This document shows positions 11,230-54,251 of a DNA stretch of 64,000 nucleotides, piece after piece (position 1 is the stretch's first letter; the number at the start of each line of letters is the position of its first letter). The position numbers and the translations under genes are program-made. The DNA lies in contig CALVHL010000001.1 in NCBI GenBank assembly GCA_944327625.1, positions 1 to 64,000 on the forward strand, in the 5' to 3' direction. The notes beneath the pieces were generated by a model. It worked only from the letters and a program-made list of their open reading frames with translations. It made no database searches and was not told the origin of the DNA. This DNA comes from an uncultured Clostridia bacterium. GTDB lineage: Bacteria > Bacillota > Clostridia > Christensenellales > Borkfalkiaceae.

Positions 11230-13107
11230 TTGAGAAGACGCGAAAACACAGCAAACCGCGAGCAAGCGGAAAATATTACTCCGCCCGAATACGCCGTGGT
11301 ATTCGACAACGTAAGCTTCACTTACGCCTCGGACGAGCCCTTCGCCGTCAAGGACCTCAGCCTGAGCGTTCGTCGGGGCGAATTTTTATCCGTGCTCGGG
11401 CATAACGGCAGCGGCAAATCGACGCTCGCAAGGCTCATTTCGGGGCTGCTCATCGCGGACAAGGGCAAAATAGGCGTCTGGGGGCTCGATCCCGCCGACA
11501 GACGGCAGGTCAACGAAGTGCGCCGCCACGCGGGCATAGTGTTCCAGAACCCCGACAACCAGATGGTCGCCTCTATCGTCGAGGACGACGTCGCTTTCGG
11601 CCCCGAGAATATCGGCGTCGGACGCGAGGAGATAGGCAACCGCATACAGTGGGCGCTCGAAACGGTGGGAATGGAAGAATACCGCAACTCCACGCCGACG
11701 CGCCTTTCGGGCGGGCAGAAGCAGAGGATTGCCATCGCCGGCGTCCTCGCCATAAAGCCCGACATAATAATATTGGACGAATCGACCGCCATGCTCGATC
11801 CGCGCGGCAGAAAGGAAGTCGTCGAGGTTGTCAGAAAGCTCAATAAAGAGCAGGGCATGACCGTAATACTCATCACGCACTTCATGGAGGAGGCGCTTCT
11901 CGCCGACAGGGCGGTCGTAATGAACCGCGGCGAGCTGGTAGCCGAGGGCACTCCCGAGCACATATTCGAGATGGGCGACATGCTCGAAACGTACAATCTC
12001 ACGCTGCCCGAAATAGGCATAATCAGGAAAAATCTCGCCGAAAACGGCATACCGCTCGCGCCCTGCCTGCGCGCGGACGAGTTCGCGGACGAGCTTGCAA
12101 AATACGTTGAAGAAAATCACATACATTTCAATTGCCCCGCATATATGCCCCAACGAACGCCTTATACGGGCGGTAAAGAGTGGGATATTTCTATAAATAA
12201 TCTCGTCTACACCTACTCTAAAAAATCGCCTTTCGCCGCCCACGCGCTCAAAGGCGTCGACCTCTCTATCGCCGAGGGCGAGTTCTTCGGCATAATCGGT
12301 CATACGGGCAGCGGCAAGTCGACGCTCGTGCAGCACCTCAACGCGCTCATCAAGCTCCCGCAGGCGGAGAAAAAATATAAAGAATCCAAGGTAAAGAAGG
12401 GCGAACAGCCCCCCGCAAAGTCGGAAATATATGTCGGCAAATATAATCTCGGCGACAGAAAGTGCGCCTGGAAGGAGCTGAGGTGCGACGTGGGAATGGT
12501 CTTCCAGTACCCCGAATATCAGCTCTTTGCCGAAACGGTGTTCGACGACGTGGCGTTCGGCCTCAAAAATTTCAGACCGGATATGCCCGCCGAGGAAGTA
12601 AAAAAGGCGGTCAGGGACAGCCTCGAAGTCGTCGGGCTCAACTATGACGAAATCGCCGAAAAGTCGCCCTTCGACCTGTCGGGCGGGCAGAAAAGGCGCG
12701 TCGCGATAGCCGGCGTAATCGTCACCCGTCCCAAAATACTCATTCTCGACGAACCCGCCGCGGGGCTCGATCCCCTCGGCAAGCGCGAAATAATGTCGCT
12801 CCTTCATTCGCTTCACGGCGATTGGTGCAGCACGGTAATAATCGTCTCCCACGATATGGACGAAGTCGTCGAAAACTGCACCCGCGCCTGCGTAGTGTCG
12901 GATGGCAAGATCTTCGACTGCGCCCGCCCGTCCGAACTTTTCAGGCGCGGCGACGATTTAAGGGCGCTCGGGCTCGACGTGCCGCTGACGGCAAAGATTT
13001 GCGAAAGCCTTGCGGAGCGCGGGCTAAAAGTCGACTGCGACCTTACGGCGAAAGGGCTGTGTGAGGCGATAATCGCGGCGACGCGCGGAGGTCAAGCCAA
13101 TGCTTAA
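11230..13107 (+). CDS. ecfA1A2: Fused ECF transporter ATPase EcfA1-EcfA2
   Basis: A 625-residue protein carrying both ATPases of an energy-coupling factor transporter, normally two genes. The first half has Walker A GHNGSGKST (about 57-65), signature LSGGQKQR (about 159) and Walker B LDESTAMLDP, the EcfA1 form. The second half has GHTGSGKST (about 357-365), LSGGQKRR (about 483) and LDEPAAGLDP, the EcfA2 form. The linker contains an in-frame copy of the dispersed repeat at residues 300-310. The start is TTG with AAGGAA upstream. It overlaps ecfT by 8 nt. With EcfT it would energise S components such as BioY (33 kb) and the corrinoid candidate (32 kb). Confidence 0.93.
   Translation: MRRRENTANREQAENITPPEYAVVFDNVSFTYASDEPFAVKDLSLSVRRGEFLSVLGHNGSGKSTLARLISGLLIADKGKIGVWGLDPADRRQVNEVRRHAGIVFQNPDNQMVASIVEDDVAFGPENIGVGREEIGNRIQWALETVGMEEYRNSTPTRLSGGQKQRIAIAGVLAIKPDIIILDESTAMLDPRGRKEVVEVVRKLNKEQGMTVILITHFMEEALLADRAVVMNRGELVAEGTPEHIFEMGDMLETYNLTLPEIGIIRKNLAENGIPLAPCLRADEFADELAKYVEENHIHFNCPAYMPQRTPYTGGKEWDISINNLVYTYSKKSPFAAHALKGVDLSIAEGEFFGIIGHTGSGKSTLVQHLNALIKLPQAEKKYKESKVKKGEQPPAKSEIYVGKYNLGDRKCAWKELRCDVGMVFQYPEYQLFAETVFDDVAFGLKNFRPDMPAEEVKKAVRDSLEVVGLNYDEIAEKSPFDLSGGQKRRVAIAGVIVTRPKILILDEPAAGLDPLGKREIMSLLHSLHGDWCSTVIIVSHDMDEVVENCTRACVVSDGKIFDCARPSELFRRGDDLRALGLDVPLTAKICESLAERGLKVDCDLTAKGLCEAIIAATRGGQANA
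12127..12159 (+). repeat. Dispersed 33-bp palindromic element, copy C (inside ecfA1A2)
   Basis: TTCAATTGCCCC, GCATATATGCC and CCAACGAACG, nearly identical to copy D. It is translated in frame as F-N-C-P-A-Y-M-P-Q-R-T between the two ATPase halves. The insertion preserved the frame because the element is 33 bp (11 codons) and open in this frame. Confidence 0.75.
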
Positions 13108-13945
13108 AGACGTAACCTTCGGTCAGTATTATCCCGTCGAATCGTTCGTGCACAGGCTCGATCCCCGCGTCAAGCTGCTCGGGCTGATTGCCTATATAGT
13201 AATGCTTTTCGTCGCAAAGTCGTTCTATTCGCTCGCGCTCGGCGCGCTCGTGCTCGCGTTCGTCATAACCGTTTCGGGCGTACCCGCCAAATCGGTGTTC
13301 CGCTCGGTGCGCGGCATACTCTTTCTTCTGGCGTTCACATCGCTCCTCAACGTATTCTTTCACGGCGGCGAAATGCTGCTTGCCGAGTGGGGAATAATCA
13401 AAATCTACGTAGAGGGCATAATATTTGCGATATTCCTCATGTTCAGGCTGGTCTTCATCGTCATGGCTTCGGCAATACTGACCTTGACCACCACGCCCGT
13501 GTCGCTCACCGACGCATTTGAAAGCCTTTTATTCCCGCTCACCCTCATAAAAGTGCCCGTGCACGTGTTCGCGCTCATAATGTCCATCGCGCTCAGGTTT
13601 ATTCCCACGCTCATGGACGAAACCAACCGCATAATCAACGCGCAGAAGGCGAGGGGAGCCGACTTCGAGTCGGGCAATATCTTCAAGCGCGTCAGGGCGA
13701 TAGTGCCCATTTTAATACCGCTCATCATAAGCGCGCTTCGCCGCGCCGACGAGTTGGGCGATGCAATGGACGCGAGGTGCTATTCGGGCGCAACCAAGCG
13801 CACGAAGTATAAGAAATTGCGGTTCGGCTGGCGCGACGCCGTCGCCGTGCTCGTCCTCGCCGTGCTCATAGCGGGCGTTATACTTCTCAATATCTACGCC
13901 GCGGCAATCTGGCCGGCTGCCGCGCCCTATATGGTGATATCGTGA
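13100..13945 (+). CDS. ecfT: ECF transporter transmembrane subunit EcfT
   Basis: 281 residues. The hydrophobic core starts near residue 25, and the coupling helices carry the A-R-G motif in NAQKARGADF (about 180) and a second MDARCYSG segment (about 222), the usual docking sites for the EcfA ATPases. HRLDPRVKL near residue 20 is also typical. It overlaps ecfA1A2 by 8 nt and truA by 4 nt, the classical Bacillota order ecfA1-ecfA2-ecfT-truA. Confidence 0.93.
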   Translation: MLKDVTFGQYYPVESFVHRLDPRVKLLGLIAYIVMLFVAKSFYSLALGALVLAFVITVSGVPAKSVFRSVRGILFLLAFTSLLNVFFHGGEMLLAEWGIIKIYVEGIIFAIFLMFRLVFIVMASAILTLTTTPVSLTDAFESLLFPLTLIKVPVHVFALIMSIALRFIPTLMDETNRIINAQKARGADFESGNIFKRVRAIVPILIPLIISALRRADELGDAMDARCYSGATKRTKYKKLRFGWRDAVAVLVLAVLIAGVILLNIYAAAIWPAAAPYMVIS

Positions 13946-31513: not shown

Positions 31514-31542
31514 ACTTTATAACTTTTTTCGTCATTTGTCAA
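31514..31542 (-). promoter_or_regulatory. Promoter of fruK
   Basis: On the minus strand TTGACA, a 17-nt spacer and TAAAGT. A second TATAAT lies 11 nt before the ATG. Confidence 0.45.
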
Positions 31543-31548
31543 TAATTT

Positions 31549-32316
31549 TTACCGCCGTATATGCGCCCGCATTATGGCAAGAAGCGGCGGCGACAGTAGC
31601 GACACCGTCGCAAGCGTGCATATCGTCTGCGGCAGCATTGCGATAAAGGACGAATAAAAGTAGCCGAGCGCCGTCCTCGCCGTCATTCCGAGCATGAGCG
31701 GCGTGATTATATCGTCGAGCAGGGTGAAACAGATTGTCATTATGCAGGCGACGGAGGTATAGAGAAAGGTTGCAAGTATTCTGCCGCGGCACTTTCCCTT
31801 CTTTACGGCAATAAAGACGGCATTAAAGGCGATTATTAGCGCCGCGCTTATGCCGAATATCGCCCAGGTCAGCGCGTAGGCCGTCGCCTGATACAGTTTG
31901 GAAACCTTGATAAGCTCAAACAGGCAACAGCACAGCGATAAGGCGCAGACGGCGGCAAGCAGGATATTGACGGCAACGGCAATGCTCGCCCTGCCCTCGT
32001 CGAAAGTCTGTTCCTTAATCTTGCCGAGCAGCCCGAAGACGAGCGCGAGCAGGGGATAATAAATGAGGTATAAAACTATGGCAGTCGGGTAAAATCCCCA
32101 GATAAAGCACCTAAGAAGCGTAAAGCTCAGGGCGGTAACCACCCCGCAGATCACGCCCGCGCAGGCAGAAAAGCAGACGAAAAGCAGGGTAACAACTTCA
32201 ACGCCCGAAATAAAGCCGAGCGCCGCCTGTGCCCCCGTAATCAGCGCGGTCATAACAGCGCAGTATGCAATTTTTCTCGCGGTCATCGCCGCGTAGCCGT
32301 GCGCGTCGCCTTTCAT
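31549..32316 (-). CDS. ECF transporter S component, probable corrinoid uptake
   Basis: 255 residues with about six hydrophobic helices. IAYCAVMTALITGAQAALGFISGVE is typical of ECF S components, and FYPTAIVLYLIYYPLLAL and LPQTICTLATVSLLSP continue the pattern. It begins 2 nt after the stop of the DUF4430 lipoprotein and shares its cobalamin-riboswitch leader, so corrinoid or precursor import is the best inference. The shared EcfA1A2/EcfT at 11-14 kb would energise it. ATG 32316 is chosen because the upstream frame is a shadow of the neighbour. Confidence 0.82.
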   Translation of the reverse strand: MKGDAHGYAAMTARKIAYCAVMTALITGAQAALGFISGVEVVTLLFVCFSACAGVICGVVTALSFTLLRCFIWGFYPTAIVLYLIYYPLLALVFGLLGKIKEQTFDEGRASIAVAVNILLAAVCALSLCCCLFELIKVSKLYQATAYALTWAIFGISAALIIAFNAVFIAVKKGKCRGRILATFLYTSVACIMTICFTLLDDIITPLMLGMTARTALGYFYSSFIAMLPQTICTLATVSLLSPPLLAIMRAHIRR

Positions 32317-32318
32317 CT

Positions 32319-32819
32319 TTACCAGGTCATCTCGTTTAGCTGATAGACGAGCGCATAGCTCTGCCCTTCGACGCAGGGCAGGCCGCTTGCGCCGTAGAGC
32401 GCGCTGTAAAGTGTAAGTCCGCCCACTTCGATAGCGTCGTCGCCCGAATAAATCACGCCTTCGTAAGTAGTGAGGGTGGTGTAAATCATCCAATCCCAGC
32501 CGCAGTAAGAATTTTCGGTCAAGCTGACCGTCTTGCTCGTTATTCCCATCACCGAGGTTATGTAAAAGCCGTATTCGTCCGAATACCCGTCGAATACGAG
32601 GTCGCCGTCCTCTTTAAGCGCGCACATATAGTCGTACATGCTGCTGTCGTCGGTAATGTCCGCAACGCCTGCATCCGCCGTGAACGCATACACGATTAAA
32701 TGCCCGTTTTCAATGCCGTCTGCGTTGTCGGTCGTATTGCCGAGGCTCCCGCACGCGCTGAATAATAGGGCGCAGGCAATAACCGTTGCCGACAGGGCAA
32801 GAGCAAATAATTTCTTCAT
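32319..32819 (-). CDS. DUF4430 lipoprotein, predicted corrinoid-binding
   Basis: 166 residues. A lipoprotein signal peptide ends in lipobox LFSAC (Cys23). The mature part carries a DUF4430 domain with YDYMCALKEDG, GFYITSVMGI, NSYCGWDWMIYTT and GQSYALVYQ; this family is related to the C-terminal domain of transcobalamin/intrinsic factor. Anchored outside, it would capture corrinoid and pass it to the S component. The cobalamin riboswitch upstream supports this. Confidence 0.85.
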   Translation of the reverse strand: MKKLFALALSATVIACALLFSACGSLGNTTDNADGIENGHLIVYAFTADAGVADITDDSSMYDYMCALKEDGDLVFDGYSDEYGFYITSVMGITSKTVSLTENSYCGWDWMIYTTLTTYEGVIYSGDDAIEVGGLTLYSALYGASGLPCVEGQSYALVYQLNEMTW

Positions 32820-32834
32820 ATAAAAACTCCTTTA

Positions 32835-32868
32835 AATAAAAATAACCGCTCGGATATTCCTCGGGCGG
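32835..32868 (-). terminator. Cobalamin-riboswitch terminator
   Basis: On the minus strand CCGCCCGAGG and CCGAGCGG form an imperfect stem followed by a T-rich stretch just before the DUF4430 gene. A second hairpin (GCAAGGG/CCCTTGC) lies just upstream and may be its antiterminator partner. Confidence 0.6.
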
Positions 32869-32935
32869 CGCAAAATGGCAAGGGCAGGCTGCACCCTTGC
32901 AAAAGAAAATTCCGCGTCCCCTCGGAATGTTGCAA

Positions 32936-33113
32936 TCTTAAACCCTCTCGGCAGGTCTTCCGGCTTAAAATGCGGCAACTTTTCTCTATGGCGCGTTCTT
33001 CCCGAAATTTTCAGTGAACGCGTCTGTTGCGGCAACGGCAGCGGGGGCTGCGGGGCTATTGGCCCAGACTTCCCTATTGAACGCCCTTATCTTGTCGGGG
33101 CGTACCGAAAAGG
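32936..33113 (-). promoter_or_regulatory. Cobalamin (adenosylcobalamin) riboswitch
   Basis: The minus strand shows the B12-box landmarks: AATAGGGAAG, then CCGCAGCCCCCGCTGCC, later AGCCGGAAGACCTGCC. Length and order fit the class. It lies directly upstream of the DUF4430 lipoprotein and ECF S component. Confidence 0.9.
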
Positions 33114-33130
33114 TCTATTTATTTTTATTG

Positions 33131-33160
33131 AGTATATTATCAATTCGCGCCGCTTGTCAA
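33131..33160 (-). promoter_or_regulatory. Promoter of the B12-riboswitch operon
   Basis: On the minus strand TTGACA, an 18-nt spacer and TATACT, ending 18 nt before the aptamer. Confidence 0.75.
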
Positions 33161-33261: not shown

Positions 33262-33864
33262 ATGAACAGAGCAAAGATGATCTCGGCAGACATAGCCGAA
33301 TGTGCGCTTTTCTGTGCGCTGATGATAGCGGGCGCATACATAAGAATACCCTTTCCGCTCGTGCCGCTGACCTTTCAGACGGTATTTGCCACGCTTGCGG
33401 GGCTGCTGCTCGGGTGGAAGAAGGGCATAATTTCAACTGCGGCGTATATGGTGCTCGGGCTTGCGGGACTGCCCGTATTCACTTCGGGCGGAGGAATTGC
33501 CTACGTCGTAATGCCGTCTTTCGGCTTCGTCGTCGGCTTTATCGCCGCGGCGGGGGTGGGGGGAATAATGTGGTCCGCCGAAAAGAAGCTCTGGAAGCTT
33601 ATCGTAATTTCGCTCTCCGCCTGCGCCGCAAACTATGTAATCGGCGGCGTCTTCGTCTGGTGCTGGCTGAATATCAACGGCGGCTATGACATAGCTTCTT
33701 CTATGGTCAGCTGGGTGTTCATCTACATTCCCAAGGATATAATTCTCTGCCTCATTGCGGCTGTAACCGCGTGGAAAGTGCTACCCGCGTTGAAGAAAAT
33801 GCGCTCTGCCCGCGGCGTCAAAAAGTTAAAAGAGCCCGACGGCGAAACCGCAAAGACCGATTGA
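33262..33864 (+). CDS. bioY: Biotin ECF transporter S component BioY
   Basis: 200 residues with six hydrophobic helices. Family signatures are AYIRIPFPLVPLTFQTVFATLAG, LLGWKKGIISTAAYMVLGLAGLPVF, GGGIAYVVMPSFGFVVGF and WVFIYIPKD. It imports biotin, energised by the shared EcfA1A2/EcfT. The message should start at the ATG itself; a GAGGT directly adjoins the ATG, too close to be a normal ribosome-binding site. The BirA-like operator fits repression by biotin. Confidence 0.95.
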   Translation: MNRAKMISADIAECALFCALMIAGAYIRIPFPLVPLTFQTVFATLAGLLLGWKKGIISTAAYMVLGLAGLPVFTSGGGIAYVVMPSFGFVVGFIAAAGVGGIMWSAEKKLWKLIVISLSACAANYVIGGVFVWCWLNINGGYDIASSMVSWVFIYIPKDIILCLIAAVTAWKVLPALKKMRSARGVKKLKEPDGETAKTD

Positions 33865-54130: not shown

Positions 54131-54137
54131 AATGTGT

Positions 54138-54237
54138 GACAATACGGGAGCTTGTTGGCTATGCCGCACGGGCTGAGAGGGAGGTGACGCCTCCGACCGT
54201 CAATCTGATTTGGGTAATGCCAACGTAGAGAAATTTG
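54138..54237 (+). promoter_or_regulatory. TPP riboswitch (THI element)
   Basis: Landmarks in order: ACGGGAGC, GGGCTGAGAGGGAGG, CCTCCGACCG, CAATCTGATTTGGGTAATGCC and AACGTAGAGAA. It lies 65 nt upstream of thiS and before a terminator. Confidence 0.93.
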
Positions 54238-54251
54238 TTTTGAAATCATGC

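Follow-up and report, generated by a model that had tools for sequence, protein, structure and literature searches.

A cobalamin-riboswitch operon encoding a transcobalamin-like lipoprotein and an ECF S-component-like protein as a probable corrinoid importer in uncultured Clostridia

The window, a stretch of 64,000 nucleotides from an uncultured Clostridia bacterium, carries a cobalamin riboswitch followed by adjacent genes for a lipoprotein and a membrane protein. This operon is probably a corrinoid (B12) importer of a B12-auxotrophic cell, in which the lipoprotein would capture the ligand or hand it over, the membrane protein would act as S component, and a shared EcfA1A2–EcfT module would complete a transporter feeding mainly MetH. 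That the gene pair imports B12 is very probable, and homology together with a predicted fold makes the lipoprotein a plausible capture or hand-over protein.

The riboswitch-headed gene pair and its conservation

The operon opens with a promoter (TTGACA-18-TATACT, 33160–33131, minus strand) that agrees with 11 of 12 consensus positions, a consensus match only, and lies directly 5′ of the riboswitch aptamer. The aptamer (33124–32933, minus strand) matches the RF00174 covariance model over its full length (model positions 1–189 of 189) and scores 69.5 bits (E-value 4.3e-15), the gathering cut-off being 31.5; it is the only RF00174 match in the 1.83 Mb genome. An earlier note, made from the letters of the window, had named both the promoter and the cobalamin riboswitch, and both are borne out. 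The lipoprotein gene (32819–32319, minus strand), which encodes 166 aa with a lipobox cysteine at position 23 and is transcobalamin beta-domain (DUF4430)-like on the basis of its reading frame, family profile, and fold, begins with an ATG at 32819, 113 nt 3′ of the aptamer. A spacing of 2 nt separates it from the gene for the membrane protein (32316–31549, minus strand), an ECF S-component-like product of 255 aa with eight predicted helices, assigned from its reading frame and predicted fold. The 1-phosphofructokinase gene downstream of the pair (31484–30573) has a promoter-like site of its own at 31542–31514, so the operon probably comprises two genes.

On the other side of the leader, the gene for the biotin S component BioY (33262–33864, plus strand) is divergent from the operon and has its own promoter (TTGACA-18-TAAAAT); BioY is likewise divergent in three related loci (L002, L003, and L007). 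The window also contains a lysine riboswitch (21272–21095, minus strand), a TPP riboswitch scoring just above cut-off (54134–54248, plus strand), and a tmRNA (4840–4446, minus strand).

Two terminator-like hairpins with U-rich tails follow the aptamer on the minus strand. The first (32928–32909) has six pairs, three of them G–C, followed by TTTTCTTTT; its energy is −7.2 kcal/mol (32905–32933), and it is weak alone. The second (32868–32846) has one mismatch and an energy of −9.4 kcal/mol (32832–32870), and its tail, UUAUUUUUAUUU, immediately precedes the ribosome-binding site. Taken from the window alone, these hairpins have no clear advantage over shuffled sequence, and the leader's own fold was rejected as proof of a terminator (131 nt against shuffles, z −0.44). 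Among 24 related leaders, 16 contain a strict terminator pattern in the stretch from the aptamer to the start codon, where 3.8 would be expected; this pattern misses the imperfect hairpins of the window itself. Transcription termination is therefore the likely output of the riboswitch, as read from these leaders. The terminator proposed in the earlier note thus gains support from the related leaders, whereas the hairpins of the window remain weak against shuffles.

The conservation of the pair was examined from both of its members. The lipoprotein-based search matched 61 of 201 genomes, and the resulting set comprises 29 distinct relatives (L002, L003, and L007–L033), including two loci from a separate contig search; L005 and L006 were left out as repeats of L002 and L003. 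A B12-class riboswitch lies upstream at gathering score in 27 of the 28 loci with upstream sequence, 23 of them belonging to RF00174 and four to AdoCbl-II (RF01689). The loci without a riboswitch are L019 and L020, the latter cut by the contig end. The S-component-based search, which was blind to the other parts, matched 127 of 201 genomes, and 40 loci were drawn from these matches across many genera. The lipoprotein is encoded directly upstream in 39 of the 40, and a B12 riboswitch at gathering score, from the same two families (RF00174 and RF01689), is present in 23 (38 loci have upstream sequence; L083 and L093 stop short of the leader). Five further leaders score just below threshold with E ≤0.008 (L075, L081, L091, L100, and L106), and about one-quarter of the loci with upstream sequence have no recognisable riboswitch. 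The two genes stay adjacent in almost every one of about 70 loci. The earlier note had called for a search for the same pair behind B12 riboswitches and would have counted pairs mostly under other regulators against its reading; with 27 of 28 lipoprotein-selected and 23–28 of 38 S-selected loci preceded by such a riboswitch, the pairs are mostly under B12 control. A MetH-type reading frame adjoins the pair in 11 of 75 loci. In one locus, a gene for a PatB-family C–S lyase (L031:90–1259) lies 5′ of the AdoCbl-II riboswitch and the gene pair.

Identity of the lipoprotein and the membrane protein

Searched singly against Pfam, NCBIfam, and the PDB, the two window proteins return nothing meaningful, and family profiles are needed. 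The window lipoprotein gives no match to DUF4430 (PF14478) up to E = 10, and a PF14478 search of its genome finds no match either; the model is matched, however, by 17 of 30 lipoprotein relatives, with a best E-value of 9.8e-6. The designation of the protein as a DUF4430 lipoprotein consequently holds at the level of the family and not for the window protein itself. The family profile reaches the transcobalamin-2 beta domain (5NO0) at E 8.5e-4, the bacterial DUF4430 structure 3U7Z at E 0.008, and, weakly, intrinsic factor at E 0.17. The AF2 model of the lipoprotein has a confident core (blocks from residue 41 onward at least 94), and with it the best 16 PDB matches in Foldseek are all transcobalamin or 3U7Z (probability 0.92–1.0), the TM-score against the transcobalamin beta domain being a modest 0.54 by target length (E 8e-3). 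By profile and modelled fold, the family is distantly related to the beta domain of transcobalamin, which upholds the previously suggested kinship to the C-terminal domain of that carrier.

Four residues (C23, W110, G143, and Y155) are invariant across the 30 lipoprotein relatives. The family stretch YGfyitsvng...W ([YF]G...NG...W) aligns on transcobalamin residues 359–377, a numbering read off the alignment, and thus neighbours L358, whose backbone binds the ligand phosphate in holo-transcobalamin. The sub-picomolar affinity of transcobalamin needs both of its domains. No alpha-domain-like partner was found in the window's genome, in a search run without a positive control. Both CNCbl and cobinamide are ligands of the isolated human transcobalamin beta domain (PMC5599065). 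A tblastn search of the lipoprotein against plasmids gave no match.

The membrane protein matches none of the Pfam S-component models, and PF12822 is matched by 2 of 29 of its relatives (best E-value 1.9e-6). Its AF2 model (pLDDT 90.5) contains eight long helices, the norm for S components being six, and in Foldseek it matches RibU (5KBW; probability 1.0, TM 0.60 by target) and ThiT (probability 0.97), both with E above 0.2. Judged from this model, the protein has the ECF S-component fold with two helices beyond the usual six, and its earlier assignment as an S component is retained. Helix 1 carries an AxxxA motif (A20 and A24), which we take to be the EcfT-docking motif of S components.

The relatives of this protein occur in a long form, with 230–285 aa matched, and a short form of 172–191 aa that lacks about 70 residues, which hold two helices. 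A tree built on the common core places the long form, L079 excepted, in a single branch with a support of 97/98, and L068 is a short sequence nested within it; L068 has therefore apparently lost the lipoprotein as well as the extra helices. At that locus the S component (L068:822–1343, minus strand) lies directly behind MetH without a lipoprotein. The S-component frames of L056, L059, and L064 contain one or two in-frame stops, owing to decay or assembly errors.

No sequence match links the window S component to CbrT in the PDB. At the level of profiles, an alignment of 173 columns with a probability of 91% connects the family to S components from wider Cbr-like operons, the gap in the alignment falling at the extra helices, whereas BioY as a control reaches 62 columns only with a probability of 85%. 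Against the single L. plantarum CbrT, the profile gives 21% identity over 66 columns and a probability of 21%.

The shared ECF module, B12 metabolism, and competing explanations

The window also encodes a fused EcfA1–EcfA2 ATPase of 625 aa with two ABC_tran domains (11230–13107, plus strand) and an EcfT (13100–13945, plus strand) that matches CbiQ (PF02361) at E 1e-49 as the sole match in the genome; a truA-like gene follows them. This module lies 18 kb from the operon, which itself holds no ECF module genes. No FecCD (BtuC-type) permease was matched genome-wide, in a search that was positive in 13 of 14 control genomes, and BtuFCD was on this ground rejected as the importer. The reliance of the earlier note on EcfA1A2/EcfT, and its report of no BtuFCD genes, agree with these results. 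Among B12-binding matches in the genome, MetH alone scores above cut-off; it has homocysteine, pterin, and B12 domains. Since MetH is present and MetE, CbiD, CobS, and CobA/BtuR find no match there, the gene content suggests a B12-auxotrophic cell that depends on B12 to make methionine. The absences rest on single-family searches and, with a draft assembly of 96.9% completeness, are provisional. Cobinamide was judged unlikely as the main useful ligand, given that CobS was not found.

In the proposed mechanism, low intracellular corrinoid would lead the riboswitch to permit expression of both genes. The lipid-anchored protein would then capture corrinoid on the outside of the membrane, or pass it on to the S component, which would bind it within the membrane and dock on the shared EcfA1A2–EcfT. 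ATP hydrolysis would release the corrinoid inside the cell, mainly for MetH.

The role of the lipoprotein is where the most substantial rival departs from this scheme. The S component might import corrinoids alone, with the lipoprotein as a non-binding accessory that, for example, stabilises it, as would befit ECF-CbrT of L. delbrueckii, which restores B12-dependent growth and transports cobalamin without added lipoprotein and is proven to import cobinamide as well (PMC5997447), and L068, where an S component stands directly behind MetH with no lipoprotein. This reading is unlikely, if deserving of real weight, because the lipoprotein is kept in 39 of 40 S-selected loci and its conserved [YF]G...NG...W stretch aligns beside a ligand-contacting residue of transcobalamin. 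The ligand itself could also be questioned, as B12 riboswitches also control B12-independent alternatives, a PatB-family C–S lyase lies upstream in L031, and the S component lacks a sequence match to the solved CbrT; the pair would then import another compound of B12-linked metabolism, such as a methionine precursor, and the riboswitch would merely tie it to B12 status. A transcobalamin-like partner protein, a MetH-dependent genome without any FecCD permease, and a single B12 riboswitch in that genome argue against such a ligand and render it quite improbable. Finally, neither protein singly matches a named family, as could be expected of two genes with separate functions and only a leader in common, but the 2-nt spacing and the adjacency in nearly all of about 70 loci leave hardly any room for this interpretation, which synteny largely refutes. 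Corrinoid import by the S component, with the lipoprotein as putative capture or hand-over protein, is therefore preferred.

If this is right, many uncultured Clostridia gain a named B12 importer, a BtuC-type permease being absent at least from the window's genome, and the B12 carriers of animals gain a bacterial relative of their beta domain. It also becomes testable whether a transcobalamin beta domain on its own can do the work of a capture subunit for an ECF transporter; we know of no ECF transporter proven to need such a subunit.

Wider clostridial systems and known transporters

DUF4430 is present in 112 of 245 genomes of the class Clostridia, and many of these genes are followed by an EcfT gene. 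Some clostridial operons encode a squalene-cyclase-type toroid protein, a DUF4430 protein, EcfT, a fused ATPase, and an S component (L138–L150, e.g., L147:1504–9468 and L145:1113–5767), in some cases with SLH anchors. A cobalamin riboswitch is found in 6 of 13 of these larger regions versus 2 of 20 smaller 1.5-kb flanks. In L145, a toroid-like part and DUF4430 are joined in one chain, as in transcobalamin. On L. plantarum pMF1298-5, the CbrVUT locus (locus: PMC6722938) includes a DUF4430 protein and a toroid-like protein. The latter, annotated as “fucose-binding lectin II” (L151:8266–9318), adjoins CbrT and DUF4430 and resembles the toroid proteins of the clostridial operons, with 24% identity in the alignment.

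The profile of the window lipoproteins matches the class-wide DUF4430 proteins weakly (probability 40%) and the single L. plantarum DUF4430 protein with a probability of 1%. Close kinship with the class-wide proteins is not claimed at this profile probability, and because the link is weak, a common history is put forward only as a proposal. For the bacterial family as a whole, it is tentatively suggested that the B12 importer consists of a lipid-anchored, beta-domain-only transcobalamin homologue and an S component (of eight helices in one clade), and that it may be a reduced form of the wider clostridial system, in which a terpenoid-cyclase-like toroid protein would act with DUF4430 proteins, in the manner of the two transcobalamin domains of animals, to capture the B12 that a dedicated ECF transporter takes up.

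The general idea pre-exists in the Lactobacillus annotation literature (PMC9963975, PMC6722938). The annotation of L. rhamnosus already lists an “additional lipoprotein component of putative cobalamin ECF transporter”, and in that species the DUF4430 gene LGG_02295 adjoins the B12-dependent rtpR (PMC9963975). The L. delbrueckii gene cluster is nrdJ-cbrS-cbrT-pduO (PMC5997447), and its CbrS may be the same lipoprotein as that of the window. What seems to be new is the diverged lipoprotein family, direct B12-riboswitch control across a Clostridia family, and the eight-helix S component.

The window system resembles ECF-CbrT and CbrTUV in its predicted ECF-type B12 import, in a genome without BtuCDF, and in the placement of its S component near B12-dependent genes, and it resembles CbrVUT of L. 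plantarum pMF1298-5 in having a DUF4430-type protein in the locus. By sequence, its S component is not recognisable as CbrT, and it has two extra helices; unlike CbrTUV, the operon is headed by a B12 riboswitch and is devoid of ECF genes. Here, as in the L. rhamnosus annotation, the lipoprotein is viewed as belonging to a cobalamin ECF transporter as an additional component, yet the window protein has diverged beyond Pfam detection. Profile, fold, and conserved G, NG, and W positions relate it to the beta domain of transcobalamin and intrinsic factor; unlike these carriers, it is a beta domain only, without an alpha domain, and is lipid-anchored. B12 import with an external binding protein, as predicted here, is a trait in common with BtuFCD; the window's genome, however, has no match to a FecCD permease, and an ECF-type mechanism is proposed for it instead.
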